Virus record (IMG/VR): IMGVR_UViG_3300034691_000013
Location: 1 to 24,920 of that record
From: a virus
Length of the DNA: 24,920 nucleotides
Strand: one strand, 5' to 3'
This document shows positions 3,666 through 24,920 of the stretch, piece by piece. Under the pieces are notes generated by a model. The model was not told the origin of the DNA. It ran no database searches and saw only the letters and a program-made list of their open reading frames with translations. The number at the start of each line of letters is the position of its first letter. Position 1 is the first letter of the stretch. A program made the position numbers and the translations under genes.

Positions 3666-4715
3666 TTATGCTTTCGAAATAACGAAAGCAATCGGCGCTT
3701 GTTTACGATCAACCACACGATTCCATGGCGCGGCTTTGGCAAGGTCGGTCAGCACAGGGCTGAACTCGGTAAGCGCGTCGGCGCCAGTTGGATCAGTCCA
3801 CGACCAGCCGTAAGGGTGCAGGATGGTAGTCTTGCGTTCCCAAATGGTTTCCATGCCACCGCCGTTACCAGCAGCCGGCGTACGATCAACTTCAACCGGC
3901 GTCATTGGAACGCCTTCGCCAGCGGCGAAGCACGAACCGATTTCGGAACCGAAGCCAAAGAAGCCAGTTCCGATCAGAACCGACATATACAGACGGTCAG
4001 GACCAGCAGCACCCGAATAGACCAACGCATCGTCAACGATAACGCGCATACCTTTGTAGGTCTGAATGGTCAACTTGCCTTCGGCGTCAGCGATATAAAT
4101 AATATCCTGATCCTTAACCATTTTGGTACGGATAGCCGAATGCACAGCGATTGCGCCGAAACCGTTTGCGTCCAGGGCATCGCCCATAGTCGCGGCGGCA
4201 TCGATTGCAGCGGTGGAGTTGAATCGAGCCAGTTCACCAGCTTGCGCACTGATGTTCACAACCATGTCGCCGCCATCGTTCGCGATGTTGTCGGCAAGAA
4301 TGCCTTTCAGCGAAGCAATCAAACGGCGTTGATATTGGCGCGCCCAGTAGGTGCCGAAACGGTTACGGATATGTTGCAGCGGTTCCGAACCGGAAAGTTC
4401 ACCGATAAGGTCCATCGAACTGTAACCTTGGTTCATGAACGCTTTACGAGCGGTCATGATACCGGTCCCGACTTTATTCGGAACGGCCAAGTCAGTTGGG
4501 TCATCGTTGGACATGTTCGGTTCGATAGACGAATCCAAGTCTTTCCAGAAAGGCAAAGTTACTTGTTTACCGCCAGTACGGGCGATAGTGTCCATCAGTT
4601 CGGTACGAACTACCAAACCCGCTTGCCAGAAAGCGGTCAGTTCGGGAGTGTTCAGGGCTTGATAGCCCAAGTACACTTCGGGAATTACAACGTCAGATAG
4701 GCGGACGACTGCCAT
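3666..4715 (-). CDS. Major capsid protein
   Basis: A 349-residue protein, the main shell subunit. The opening (VVIPEVYLGYQALNTPELTA), the phrase GGKQVTLPFWKDL, the helix with ARKAFMNQGYSSMDL and the segment TYWARQYQRRLIASLKG are typical of phage coat proteins of the Gp13-like/HK97-fold group, where the long spine helix carries the paired Arg residues. Later parts include the DALDANGFGAIAVHSAIRT segment and the IIYIADAEGKLTIQTYKG strand pair. The gene directly follows the scaffold gene and precedes connectors, as expected. Start: GAGGTG four bases before ATG. No N-terminal protease or cleavage signal is evident, consistent with the separate scaffold gene. Confidence 0.88.
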   Translation of the reverse strand: MAVVRLSDVVIPEVYLGYQALNTPELTAFWQAGLVVRTELMDTIARTGGKQVTLPFWKDLDSSIEPNMSNDDPTDLAVPNKVGTGIMTARKAFMNQGYSSMDLIGELSGSEPLQHIRNRFGTYWARQYQRRLIASLKGILADNIANDGGDMVVNISAQAGELARFNSTAAIDAAATMGDALDANGFGAIAVHSAIRTKMVKDQDIIYIADAEGKLTIQTYKGMRVIVDDALVYSGAAGPDRLYMSVLIGTGFFGFGSEIGSCFAAGEGVPMTPVEVDRTPAAGNGGGMETIWERKTTILHPYGWSWTDPTGADALTEFSPVLTDLAKAAPWNRVVDRKQAPIAFVISKA

Positions 4716-8115: not shown

Positions 8116-9630
8116 CTATACGCTAGTGACTTGAATGTTTTTGGCAAACCGATTAGGACTGGCTAGCATTCGATATCTAATGCCGTCCCAAGGGTGGTCT
8201 TCTTGTTTCGTGTCAATGTCTTCGGGTTTATCTTTATCCCGTTGCAACACTGGAAAAATATCAATAGTGGCTTCGCAATTTTCCATCACGTAGAAGCCTG
8301 GACCGTCGCAGTCTATCACAGCTTCCAGGCGGTCGCGTGCGAGCTGAAAACCGTTTAAACGGGAATCTTTGCTCTTGTCCGATTTGGTCCAATGGATACC
8401 GACATTTTGCATCATTTGGGCAATGCTTTCGGTGTCGGCTTCCATATCGTTGTTAATTTGGTTATCCGCTGGTCCGGCTTCCGGTTGGGTTTTAATAAAG
8501 CCGGATTCCATCATTGCGATTTCACGGTCTCGAATACCTTCGGCAATTTTCTTAGCCGACATTTTCAAACCCTTGTTGGTGCCGACTTCTTCTGTGCCGT
8601 ACCATTCTTTAATCAGAATCAAAGAACCGGCATGTGGACAAAACATTTTGATTTCGCCAGTGGCTTTATTGAACGTTAATACTTCTTCGCCATTAGCTTC
8701 GGCAAACCAACCGCACCAAAATGGATGGGTCGAACCCCAGTCAAATGCCCTATCAATGCGCCACGACTTCGGAATGTTAAATACCGGAACAACGTGACGG
8801 CGCTTTGACCACAAGTCATCGAAGGCGCCACCGCTTACAATATCCCAATCACCCAGCAACCAAGCGCGCCGCAAAAGCGGGTCACGGTTCGACATAAGCG
8901 TTTGAATATATTGTGGGGATAGATAAATATTTTCGCGCCATGTTCCAAAGATAGCAACTTGCGAACGTGTTATAGGTTCTTCTTTTTTAGTTCGCGGGTT
9001 GAATACCATGTCGGTATATCGAATAACTTTACCGTATCCATGGTTAATGAAACGCTTGCGAACCCAGTTGTGGCCGGGACCGCTACTGTTAGTCGTGCTG
9101 AAAACTTCAAGTGGCATTTCTGGCAAATAATACATGTTCCCGTTTTCATCCCATTGTGGATGATCTTCGGGAACGAATGACGAACGGTTACAACTCATCA
9201 TTAAGTCATAACAGTCGCACGTAGGCCATTTGGTAAGTTCGTTCCAACCGATATAAGCGTACTCTTGACCATGATATTTTTGGTACGACTTATGGTCTTT
9301 CATTTCACGAAACAAAAGTTCTTCGCCAGTAGGCCACACCCATTTATAATCTTTACTGTTGGACATGAAACGCGCACCGCATTTCATTGCATCAATCATT
9401 CGTTTAGATTTCAAAACGATATCGTCAAGGCCGCTGTATTGCTGATCGAATATAACGCCTTTCCAGAATGAGCCGTAGCCCATGCCCACACGACGCACGA
9501 AGCGGGCAATCTGGCAATCCGTCTTGCCTGGGCCACGCGTGCCGGTGAACACCGTTTCAGTACAGCGGGTATCAAGGGCTAGCTCTTGAGACGAACCGGG
9601 GATTGGTTCCCAAACCTTTTTAATCTTCAA
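8116..9630 (-). CDS. terL: Terminase large subunit
   Basis: A 504-residue packaging motor and headful/cos nuclease. Walker A is GTRGPGKT at residues 30-37, Walker B is YAYIGWNE at 124-131, and the coupling motif STTN is at 178-181. The nuclease domain starts at the FDWGSTHPFW segment with Asp297. The proposed start is TTG 9630, giving MKIKKVWEPIPGSSQ, because GGCGGTG lies four bases upstream, matching the spacing at the capsid gene. A second in-frame TTG at 9645 would add five residues. It overlaps the preceding gene by 11 bases, so translation is likely coupled. ATPase and nuclease motifs both look intact. Confidence 0.92.
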   Translation of the reverse strand: MKIKKVWEPIPGSSQELALDTRCTETVFTGTRGPGKTDCQIARFVRRVGMGYGSFWKGVIFDQQYSGLDDIVLKSKRMIDAMKCGARFMSNSKDYKWVWPTGEELLFREMKDHKSYQKYHGQEYAYIGWNELTKWPTCDCYDLMMSCNRSSFVPEDHPQWDENGNMYYLPEMPLEVFSTTNSSGPGHNWVRKRFINHGYGKVIRYTDMVFNPRTKKEEPITRSQVAIFGTWRENIYLSPQYIQTLMSNRDPLLRRAWLLGDWDIVSGGAFDDLWSKRRHVVPVFNIPKSWRIDRAFDWGSTHPFWCGWFAEANGEEVLTFNKATGEIKMFCPHAGSLILIKEWYGTEEVGTNKGLKMSAKKIAEGIRDREIAMMESGFIKTQPEAGPADNQINNDMEADTESIAQMMQNVGIHWTKSDKSKDSRLNGFQLARDRLEAVIDCDGPGFYVMENCEATIDIFPVLQRDKDKPEDIDTKQEDHPWDGIRYRMLASPNRFAKNIQVTSV

Positions 9631-10132
9631 GACGCACCGCCGCAATTTCTTTCAAACCGTCTTCTTGAAGTTGGTTCTGATTAGATACAAGTTTGCGTTC
9701 CCAATCGGAAGCTTCCCCATGATCAGTATAAGCCAGTACGTGACGGACTGTATGCCCTGAACTTCCGGGGTCACTTGGTTTCTTGATCATGCCTTGAACT
9801 TCGGCATACAACTTTGCCAATTTAACGAAAGCGTCAGGATCGTTACAATCCTGCATCTTTAACCAAATCGTTCTGGCTAAATCGTTCTGTGTCGGAAGTG
9901 TGTTAACTACTTCGTTCTGTTGATTGCGAAGACGGGAAAGTTCTTCAATGACTAGAGGGTCAGCGCGCCAGTGACCGCCAACAAGAACAGCACGGTTTGG
10001 GTTTTGCGGGAACATTTCGAAAGCAATGTTGTAGGCGTCAGCGGTCGGACCCGCTTCAAACATCAGGCGCGCAAATTCCAGCTTTTGCACACGGTCAGTG
10101 TGTCGCTGTTCATCGTTTGCGTGATTGCTCAT
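9620..10132 (-). CDS. Terminase small subunit (probable)
   Basis: A 170-residue mostly helical, charged protein immediately upstream of the large terminase and overlapping it by 11 bases. Small terminase subunits recognise the packaging site and load the motor. The N-terminus (KLEFARLMFEAGPTADAYNI followed by AFEMFPQNPNRAVLVGGHW) looks like a helix-turn-helix-type segment. The middle (PDAFVKLAKLYAEVQGMIKK) is a likely oligomerisation helix, and the C-terminus is acidic and polar. ATG 10132 is preferred over the in-frame TTG at 10135. There is no clear Shine-Dalgarno, because the hairpin terminator ends only a few bases upstream. Assignment rests on context and general architecture. Confidence 0.65.
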   Translation of the reverse strand: MSNHANDEQRHTDRVQKLEFARLMFEAGPTADAYNIAFEMFPQNPNRAVLVGGHWRADPLVIEELSRLRNQQNEVVNTLPTQNDLARTIWLKMQDCNDPDAFVKLAKLYAEVQGMIKKPSDPGSSGHTVRHVLAYTDHGEASDWERKLVSNQNQLQEDGLKEIAAVRLED

Positions 10133-23429: not shown

Positions 23430-23588
23430 TTATTCGCCATCATTTTGGTCTAAATCGGCGTCACCATAACCTTCAAGATAATCGCCATATTCTTCGGTGT
23501 TATCTTCGTATGGGTTGACATATGAACGGCCCGCTTCTGAATCAGCGTAGCCGCGAGCGTAAGCTACTGTATCAAATTGGTTCGACAT
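23430..23588 (-). CDS. 52-residue acidic hypothetical protein
   Basis: A very acidic 52-residue protein starting MSNQFDTVAYARGYADSEAG, rich in Tyr, Gly, Asp and Glu (YEDNTEEYGDYLEGYGDADL). ATG 23588 has an ACGGGAT stretch eight bases upstream that overlaps one TATCCCG-family repeat. It is the first gene after the proposed promoter at 23627-23656. Its acidic, DNA-mimic-like composition is notable but proves nothing about function. Confidence 0.66.
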   Translation of the reverse strand: MSNQFDTVAYARGYADSEAGRSYVNPYEDNTEEYGDYLEGYGDADLDQNDGE

Positions 23589-23626
23589 GATTCGATATCC
23601 CGTTCGGTTTCTGTTTCGGTATGTGA

Positions 23627-23656
23627 ATGATAGCATATGTCGGGATAGTCGGGATA
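23627..23656 (-). promoter_or_regulatory. Extended -10 promoter with heptamers at -35
   Basis: On the minus strand TGCTATCAT (-10 TATCAT at 23632-23627 with an upstream TG, five of six) is an extended -10 box. No TTGACA-like -35 exists; two TATCCCG heptamers (23656-23650 and 23647-23641) occupy that region instead. Predicted start is near 23620. The heptamers could be operators for a repressor or sites for an activator. The first gene starts at 23588. Confidence 0.5.
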
Positions 23657-23712
23657 CCGTTCGTCGGAACTATCCCGATTCGCCTTATATTTATCCCATT
23701 GTATAAGTGGGG

Positions 23713-23989
23713 CTAATACGGACCAAACCCCCGGCCCTGTTGCTCTATATCTATATATAAGAAGAATATATTATTTTATTAAATAATTATTTATTGAAAA
23801 ACGGGGGGTACTGTTTCTGCGAACGTAAATTACACACTCTAGGATATCCCGTATCCCGATGGGATATCACGAACGAAATGGGATATCCCGACCCCCTGGG
23901 TCACCCCTAGTACCCTAATATTTTTAATATGCCTAATATCTCAATAGAATCAGGCACTTAGCCCTAATACCTGACTAATACGCCTAATA
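23713..23989 (+). repeat. CTAATA hexamer repeat family
   Basis: CTAATA occurs at 23713, 23915, 23933, 23964, 23975 and 23984, all in the same orientation, usually preceded by C or CC (CCTAATA or CCCTAATA). Five copies fall in 75 bases. This looks like an iteron-like or transcription-factor cluster separate from the TATCCCG family. Confidence 0.72.
23743..23801. other. AT-rich tract, possible DNA unwinding element
   Basis: About 59 bases that are nearly all A and T (including TATATCTATATATAAG and TTATTTTATTAAATAATTAT), bordered by G/C-rich sequence (CCCCCGG and CGGGGGG). It sits inside the repeat region between the two heptamer groups. This is a typical melting region for replication initiation, although it could also be an A/T-rich promoter element. 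Confidence 0.5.
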
Positions 23990-24026
23990 TAGTATTCAAA
24001 CCCGACCAATGGTATCCCGAATGCAC

Positions 24027-24046
24027 AAAAAACCCGCCGAAGCGGG
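24027..24046 (-). terminator. Intrinsic terminator after 71-residue gene
   Basis: On the minus strand CCCGC-TTCG-GCGGG followed by TTTTTT: a five-pair stem, UUCG tetraloop and clean U tract. It lies 20 bases after the stop of the gene at 24067 and seals that transcript from the repeat region downstream. Confidence 0.88.
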
Positions 24047-24066
24047 TAAGGGTTGGGAATTGGTAT

Positions 24067-24282
24067 TCAGGCTTTCATTTCGATACTGAAACCGACCATA
24101 GCGTAACGACCGACCATTTGTTCAGCTTCTGACCGGTCATCTTCGTTCTGAACGATAAGGTTAATTTTGCGTGTGCATTCATCAATCAATCGAATAGAAC
24201 CGCCATAACCGAAATCGCCAGCGATGCTATGAAGCAAGCCATGGTTGTTGCAGTTGACATTGCCGATGATCAAAGTAAACAT
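24067..24282 (-). CDS. Small hypothetical protein, single-gene unit
   Basis: A 71-residue protein starting MFTLIIGNVNCNNHGLLHSI. It continues GDFGYGGSIRLIDECTRKIN and ends with a strand/helix (AEQMVGRYAMVGFSIEMKA). AAAGGGG lies six bases before ATG. It has its own promoter (24328-24355) and terminator (24027-24046), so it is transcribed alone. No family recognised. Its isolation suggests independent control, often seen for early takeover or regulatory genes. Confidence 0.74.
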   Translation of the reverse strand: MFTLIIGNVNCNNHGLLHSIAGDFGYGGSIRLIDECTRKINLIVQNEDDRSEAEQMVGRYAMVGFSIEMKA

Positions 24283-24375: not shown

Positions 24376-24405
24376 AAAAAACCCCAAACATTTCTGAATG
24401 GGGTT
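24376..24405 (-). terminator. Intrinsic terminator
   Basis: On the minus strand AACCCCA (24405-24399) pairs with TGGGGTT (24386-24380) across a 12-base loop and runs into TTTTTTATT. It follows the stop at 24424 by about 18 bases and separates that gene from the next promoter. Confidence 0.82.
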
Positions 24406-24423
24406 TCGGTTTAGCTTATATGT

Positions 24424-24920
24424 TTAACGTTCGGTGTAGTAAACCGGTTTGTCACTTTCGAGGTCTGCGCAGTAAACCCAATTACTGACAGAAACCAAAT
24501 CACCGTTATTGAATATTACCCAGTGGTCGCCCTTAAGAATCGAACCGTCAATAAGGCTATGTTCTTTGAAATGGCCTCTTACTTCGTCACGCAAGCTGTT
24601 CAGCGTATCGAATGCCCCATAATTGTGGGCATCTGGTTTCGGGGCGCCGGTTTCGCATGCTTTCTCGTTTAGTATTACGTTAAGGTCGGGGCAGTCCGAA
24701 CGGTTAAACCAAGCTTCACCAATGACTTCTGCCTTCGGCCAAAGACCTTGGTTGTCGCTATAAGCGGTTTCGGTTTCATACACTCGGCTGTAACTTTTAA
24801 GCCAGCTATTACGCCCATCATGATCGTGTGGCAGTTGGCGAATTAATCCTTCGGCCCATTTCACACGGGTTACTTTCGATTGTAATTCGGCCTTTGTAAG
24901 AATGATGGTTTTGGCCTGAA
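24424..24920 (-). CDS. Conserved phage hypothetical protein, 5' end outside window
   Basis: The frame is open from base 24920, so the N-terminus is outside the window. At least 164 codons are visible. The visible start includes QAKTIILTKAELQSKVTRV followed by KWAEGLIRQLPHDHDGRNSW, an opening that I recognise from phage proteins of unknown function. Later segments include EAWFNRSDCPDLNVILNEKA and a C-terminal GDHWVIFNNGDLVSVSNWVY. An in-frame GTG at 24864 is probably not the start, since the conserved-looking sequence continues upstream. A terminator follows 18 bases after its stop. Confidence 0.7.
   Translation of the reverse strand, partial: QAKTIILTKAELQSKVTRVKWAEGLIRQLPHDHDGRNSWLKSYSRVYETETAYSDNQGLWPKAEVIGEAWFNRSDCPDLNVILNEKACETGAPKPDAHNYGAFDTLNSLRDEVRGHFKEHSLIDGSILKGDHWVIFNNGDLVSVSNWVYCADLESDKPVYYTER

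Follow-up and report, generated by a model that had tools for sequence, protein, structure and literature searches.

The locus at positions 23589–24026 raises the question of whether a repeat-rich, gene-free stretch of phage DNA serves as a replication origin or as a master control site, the two functions named in the original prediction. It lies in a 24,920 bp record of a siphophage-like virus, the whole of which is here called the window, with the terminase gene at 8116–9645 on the - strand. For most phages, to our knowledge, it is not known where replication starts.

Repeat words and AT-rich tract

Eleven TATCCC(G/A) words are present in the region (8 TATCCCG and 3 TATCCCA; 7 on the + and 4 on the - strand), bearing out the expectation of at least eleven copies in both orientations, together with six CTAATA words, all on the + strand and thus in one orientation as predicted. 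Outside the region TATCCC occurs nine times in the remaining 24.5 kb of the window and CTAATA twice, and neither word forms clusters in any other intergenic stretch of the window or of its close relative, G001. In the whole window TATCCCG occurs 11 times against 2.13 expected from shuffles, with none of 100 shuffles reaching 11. In 2000 dinucleotide shuffles of the region itself the mean count was 1.3 for TATCCC (largest 8, observed 11) and 0.7 for CTAATA (largest 5, observed 6); the best count of any 6-mer was matched in 2 of the 2000, and that of any 7-mer in 31. The claimed word density above chance is thus upheld, and clearly so, by the comparison with shuffled controls that had been proposed as a check.

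Iteron-type origins with an AT-rich melting element are known, for example, from phage lambda (ori) and from iteron plasmids. Of the features of such an origin, same-strand, clustered, noncoding short repeats are present as six TATTAG words on the - strand, and an AT-rich candidate unwinding element adjoins the repeats at 23744–23801. This tract had been described as 59 bases of AT between G/C runs; the tract and its flanks (CCCCCGGCCC and CGGGGGG) are as described, but it measures 58 bp and is not pure A/T.

The region is flanked by a gene start at about 23588 (-) on one side and a gene end at 24067 (-) on the other. It is gene-free as claimed, except that an ORF at 23430–23636 (-) would extend into it if translated from an ATG at 23636; the small gene most likely starts at the inner ATG at 23588, since this coincides with the edge of the block conserved in G001. 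The features are as follows (window coordinates).

23589–24035, - (strand of the primase gene in relatives): whole putative origin; block 92.4% identical in G001 between non-homologous genes; profile match E 5e-11 with terminator masked
23744–23801, no strand: AT-rich tract, proposed DNA unwinding element; 57/57 bases the same in G001; the homologous tract is the genome AT maximum in relatives
23713–23718, +: CTAATA (iteron TATTAG on -), single copy across the AT tract from the others
23915–23920, +: CTAATA (iteron TATTAG on -)
23933–23938, +: CTAATA (iteron TATTAG on -)
23964–23969, +: CTAATA (iteron TATTAG on -)
23975–23980, +: CTAATA (iteron TATTAG on -)
23984–23989, +: CTAATA (iteron TATTAG on -), sole copy altered in G001
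23948–23964, -: arm GGGCTAAGTGCCTGATT, corresponding to CTAAGTNNTTGATT of the family (G001 has the family arm intact; the window differs at two bases)
23596–23602, +: TATCCCG box
23641–23647, -: TATCCCG box
23650–23656, -: TATCCCG box
23671–23677, +: TATCCCG box
23692–23698, +: TATCCCA box (TATCCCG in G001)
23845–23851, +: TATCCCG box
23852–23858, +: TATCCCG box
23860–23866, -: TATCCCA box
23879–23885, -: TATCCCA box
23884–23890, +: TATCCCG box
24013–24019, +: TATCCCG box
23430–23588, -: small gene reading away from the putative origin, probable start 23588 (from the ORF list and conserved-block edge)
24424–24918, -: open-ended gene in the place of the G001 352-aa ORF (primase–origin interval); 24376–24444 aligns with G001 29691–29759

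Conservation in a near relative

G001 (IMG/VR, 48,262 bp; terminase 96% identical) is the one close relative found that covers the region, and it alone in IMG/VR contained an exact match to a 22-base segment of the AT tract. Window 23591–24035 is 92.4% identical to G001 29254–29699, and the genes on either side do not align. All 11 TATCCC(G/A) words are kept in the same order and nearly the same register, with extra TATCCCG sites added, so that the proposed check on conservation of repeat spacing was clearly positive. Identity extends to 64/64 bases in the TATCCC words, 57/57 in the AT tract and 35/36 in CTAATA, against 256/288 in everything else (features versus rest of region, p = 6e-6). Only 0.16% of the record's 440-bp intervals are equally conserved, the others being located at 4321–4621, inside the gene at 3666–4715. 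On these alignments the region is a conserved noncoding element.

In G001 the stretch comes after a 352-aa ORF and a 783-aa primase on the same strand. The primase belongs to phrog_3022 (E 3e-246), carries the NrS-1 polymerase HBD domain PF22763 and is similar in its N-terminal part to solved NrS-1-type primases (prim/pol domain, E 3.6e-27). On the opposite strand are genes for a Sak4-like annealing protein, SSB, a Cas4-type exonuclease, a helicase, a clamp-like factor and DNA polymerase. A strongly repetitive coding stretch is found in or beside the SSB gene (G001 35129–35738; L019 30469–31008; L020 35644–36070; L021 6631–6974; L022 30884–31284), with words such as GGTCAAC, CAACGGC and CCGCAGG; it is probably a low-complexity tail.

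The window ends before the place where the primase would be, and the position is shared with G001 only for the ORF next to the region. The same gene order is expected in the window because its segment 24376–24444 can be aligned to the site that the ORF adjoining the stretch occupies in G001. Between the putative origin and this next gene lies a small gene of unknown function (24067–24282, -; PHROG 1585) with its own terminator at 24032–24047, which looks like cargo inserted beside the putative origin, as it is absent at that place in G001.

A family of related regions

Regions of this kind are located 0.1–3.4 kb downstream of an NrS-1-like primase gene in G001 and in many cultured phages, among them Septimatrevirus, Kilunavirus, Lokivirus, Titanvirus and Paracoccus phage R3. 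A plain blastn search of 50,697 phage records with the region as query yielded nothing beyond short, weak matches, and an Rfam search gave nothing near threshold. A DNA profile built from the stretches of 12 cultured or metagenomic relatives, with the window and G001 left out, had one match in each of these two records, at 24054–23744 (-) in the window (E 6.5e-12) and with E 3.8e-8 in G001. With terminators masked the values were E 5e-11 (34.7 bits) and E 2.5e-8, respectively, and 60 in-place shuffles reached 6.2 bits at most. A match of a Septimatrevirus-only profile (E 0.005) was rejected, as it was due to a shared terminator and was gone once this was masked; the match of the wider profile stayed.

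Read in the sense of the primase gene, the recurring layout consists of same-strand short words, a CTAAGTNNTTGATT-like arm, the AT tract, an inverted copy of the arm (TTTTCAAGGACTTAG) and one more word. The iteron words are GTATAA(C/T)G in phage 73, Kaya and BAPIC_0004, GTATAAGG in Halfdan and Pavpe01, and AGTATAATG in R3; the words of VPv64 are CTATCCCC, and those of the window and G001 are TATTAGG plus TATCCCG. From this comparison across relatives CTAATA is read as the family iteron and TATCCCG as an added set. The two classes are unequal: CTAATA is the form that the family-wide iteron takes in this lineage, and TATCCCG is largely lineage-specific. Counted around the AT tract in 15 genomes or loci, the pattern [AG]TAT[AT][AG][CGT]G occurs 42 times in the primase sense and 4 times antisense, where 1.4 would be expected in either sense; the count is descriptive because the pattern was chosen from the same sequences. 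One copy usually lies at +50 to +84. The pattern is absent in VPv64, Kimi and Kmi2C.

Kmi2C, Pavpe01, LPPA15, M39 and BcepGomr were examined as fresh genomes, with predictions fixed beforehand. In the three in-family genomes the AT maximum fell at the region in 3/3 and the skew minimum in 1/3. Iterons were clear in Pavpe01 (4 sense, one of them at +64; 1 antisense), mixed in LPPA15 and absent in Kmi2C; arms were found in LPPA15 only, where both copies in the genome fall inside the region. The layout is not shown by the phages with distant primases (AB_SZL7, GottfriedDienst, Iggy, M39 and BcepGomr), and no such region is present in the partial locus of Erwinia phage AH03, whose primase is 49% identical.

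Three further observations were made in these genomes. In VPv64 of Variovorax (L023 9481–9830) and Stenotrophomonas ply2008005c (L032 6649–7032) the CTATCCCC repeats are mirrored about an AT-rich core, and resemble the TATCCCG boxes of the window more than the family iteron. Nearly all relatives have, directly upstream of the primase gene, a gene for a small HTH-like protein, a possible regulator or loader (L013 7365–7736 (-); L019, L020, L022, L028–L033, L036); this protein might still be the reader of the words, although its sequence similarity does not follow word or iteron type. In BcepGomr, which has a different replicative helicase, the AT maximum (L047, about 47414) is in a noncoding stretch just after the helicase gene (end 47261), and for this reason an origin after the helicase may be a more general arrangement.

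AT maximum and GC skew

The most AT-rich 60-mer of the genome is inside the stretch in 15/15 genomes tested whole (12/12, then Kmi2C, Pavpe01 and LPPA15). The window itself is a fragment, and the GC-skew check that had been proposed was made on the genomes tested whole; the cumulative minimum is at the region in G001 and most relatives, though not in all. It lies at most 0.6 kb away in 9 of the 15, namely G001 (394 bp), phage 73 (404), Halfdan (103), KL1 (531), VCLv11 (19), BAPIC_0004 (91), FtMidnight (307), RcHartney (458) and LPPA15 (197). In the other six it is farther off (KP1 1.5 kb, Kimi 2.7, Pavpe01 3.1, Kmi2C 3.8, R3 6.5 and VPv64 21).

For the five genomes added after the first seven the combined p for skew proximity is about 2e-6 if they are independent, the real value being weaker because the phages are related. 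Gene direction does not produce the minimum, as in the five genomes measured (G001, 73, Halfdan, KL1 and KP1) it is 2.8–3.9 kb from the switch in gene direction. When the stretch was masked, the minimum was still within 0.75 kb in G001, 73, KL1, VCLv11, FtMidnight and RcHartney, and moved away in Halfdan and BAPIC_0004.

Origin, control hub or other element

Taken together, the region is very likely to be an origin of bidirectional DNA replication of the siphophage, of the iteron type. We infer this activity from the sequence features, their conservation and homology, the position after the primase gene, the AT maximum and the skew. The prediction of a replication origin or master control site is therefore supported, with the origin favoured. 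A control hub, in which the repeats would be operators of a phage regulator for the genes starting at 23588 and replication would start elsewhere, is unlikely. It would account for a TTGAC-N17-19-TANNNT (sigma-70-type) site, found on the sense strand directly past the AT tract and shortly before the next gene in 10 of 18 related stretches (0.5 expected), and for the small HTH protein encoded beside the primase in most relatives. However, it predicts neither the genome AT maximum nor a skew minimum lying off the strand switch; the similarity of the HTH proteins does not go with word type, and the words form no clusters in the other intergenic stretches of the window and G001. The promoter is, moreover, absent from the window and G001, and a sigma-70 promoter scan of the window's end gave no more than chance. 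From the 10/18 count, origin and promoter probably share the site in many relatives, so that both predicted functions may be combined there.

A structured or antisense RNA, or a large stem-loop origin like that of pRN1, is a poorer candidate still and has little probability. The + strand of 23589–24035, a transcript of which would be antisense to the neighbouring genes, does fold much better than shuffles as RNA (z -4.1), but because of the inverted TATCCCG words, which are lineage-specific, whereas the family keeps same-strand words. For the - strand z is only -1.7 (RNA) and -2.0 (DNA), the DNA centroid shows no single long stem, and no Rfam family was matched. Least probable of all, and very much so, is a site of packaging, recombination or module exchange, a conserved noncoding junction where flanking genes swap. 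The sharp loss of homology at both edges between the window and G001 would fit such a junction, yet some 13.5 kb separate the region from the window's terminase genes, the regions of relatives adjoin the primase and not the terminase, and neither the AT maximum nor the skew minimum is predicted.

Proposed mechanism

In the proposed iteron origin, same-strand iterons (TATTAG in the window; family-wide, approximately RTAT[A/T][A/G]NG) and a CTAAGTNNTTGA-like arm beside the AT-rich tract would be bound by a phage initiator. The AT tract would open first, after which the primase-helicase would load and prime a pair of diverging forks. A second, lineage-specific set of binding sites would be formed by the TATCCCG boxes, which occur in either orientation; they may serve a regulator or act as a further set of initiator sites.

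The most likely candidate for the initiator is the NrS-1-like primase with its helicase-like C-terminal part, an assignment for which the helicase portion rests on PHROG annotation; an AlphaFold model of the primase (two sequences) had pLDDT 31 and was discarded. Two points favour the primase. In the relatives with the layout its gene precedes the stretch, an arrangement also seen at the pRN1 origin, and the priming of NrS-1 polymerase, which includes a ring-shaped helicase part, depends on sequence. More tentatively, and with some doubt, these regions could represent a so far undescribed family of origins, shared by phages of Pseudomonas, Burkholderia, Variovorax, Rhodobacter, Paracoccus and enterobacteria. 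Here an archaeo-eukaryotic-type (AEP) primase with a helicase part would itself be the initiator, reading short iterons that vary between genera (TATAACG, TATAAGG, TATTAGG) in a layout that is kept, and the second, lineage-specific set of TATCCCG boxes would take over part of recognition or control.

Comparison with known systems

No origin was found described in the freely searchable literature on KL1, DLP1/2 or phages of Rhodobacter, Achromobacter, Sphingomonas or Pseudomonas, and a search on Septimatrevirus or phage 73 with origin terms found nothing. The element appears to be of a known kind, an iteron origin, in a family that seems undescribed. If this is true, the origin would be located at once in many sequenced phages, some of them common ones that infect Pseudomonas aeruginosa and Stenotrophomonas. 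The diverged words and primases would then offer a natural series in which to study origin recognition by a PrimPol-type primase, a question still open for NrS-1 polymerase (PMC7102993).

NrS-1 polymerase combines sequence-dependent priming with a ring-shaped helicase part (PMC7102993), and the G001 primase is like it in having a related prim/pol domain and the HBD domain. Unlike the NrS-1 system, with its two copies of one 8-nt site (PMC7102993), the present regions contain many clustered words, and these phages also encode DNA polymerase, a clamp-like factor and SSB. The plasmid pRN1 has its origin just after the AEP-helicase replication gene (PMC4234260), which resembles the noncoding stretch right after a gene for an archaeo-eukaryotic-type primase with a helicase part. 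The pRN1 origin needs a 100-base stem-loop (PMC4234260), whereas the region has repeats and an AT tract and no comparable stem. In comparison with lambda ori and iteron plasmids, the words are short, at only 6–8 bases, and vary from genus to genus, the initiator would be an NrS-1-like primase and not of the Rep or lambda O type, and there is an extra box set in two orientations. As in those origins, clustered same-strand short words lie by an AT-rich tract, near replication genes and, in most relatives though not in all, at the skew minimum.
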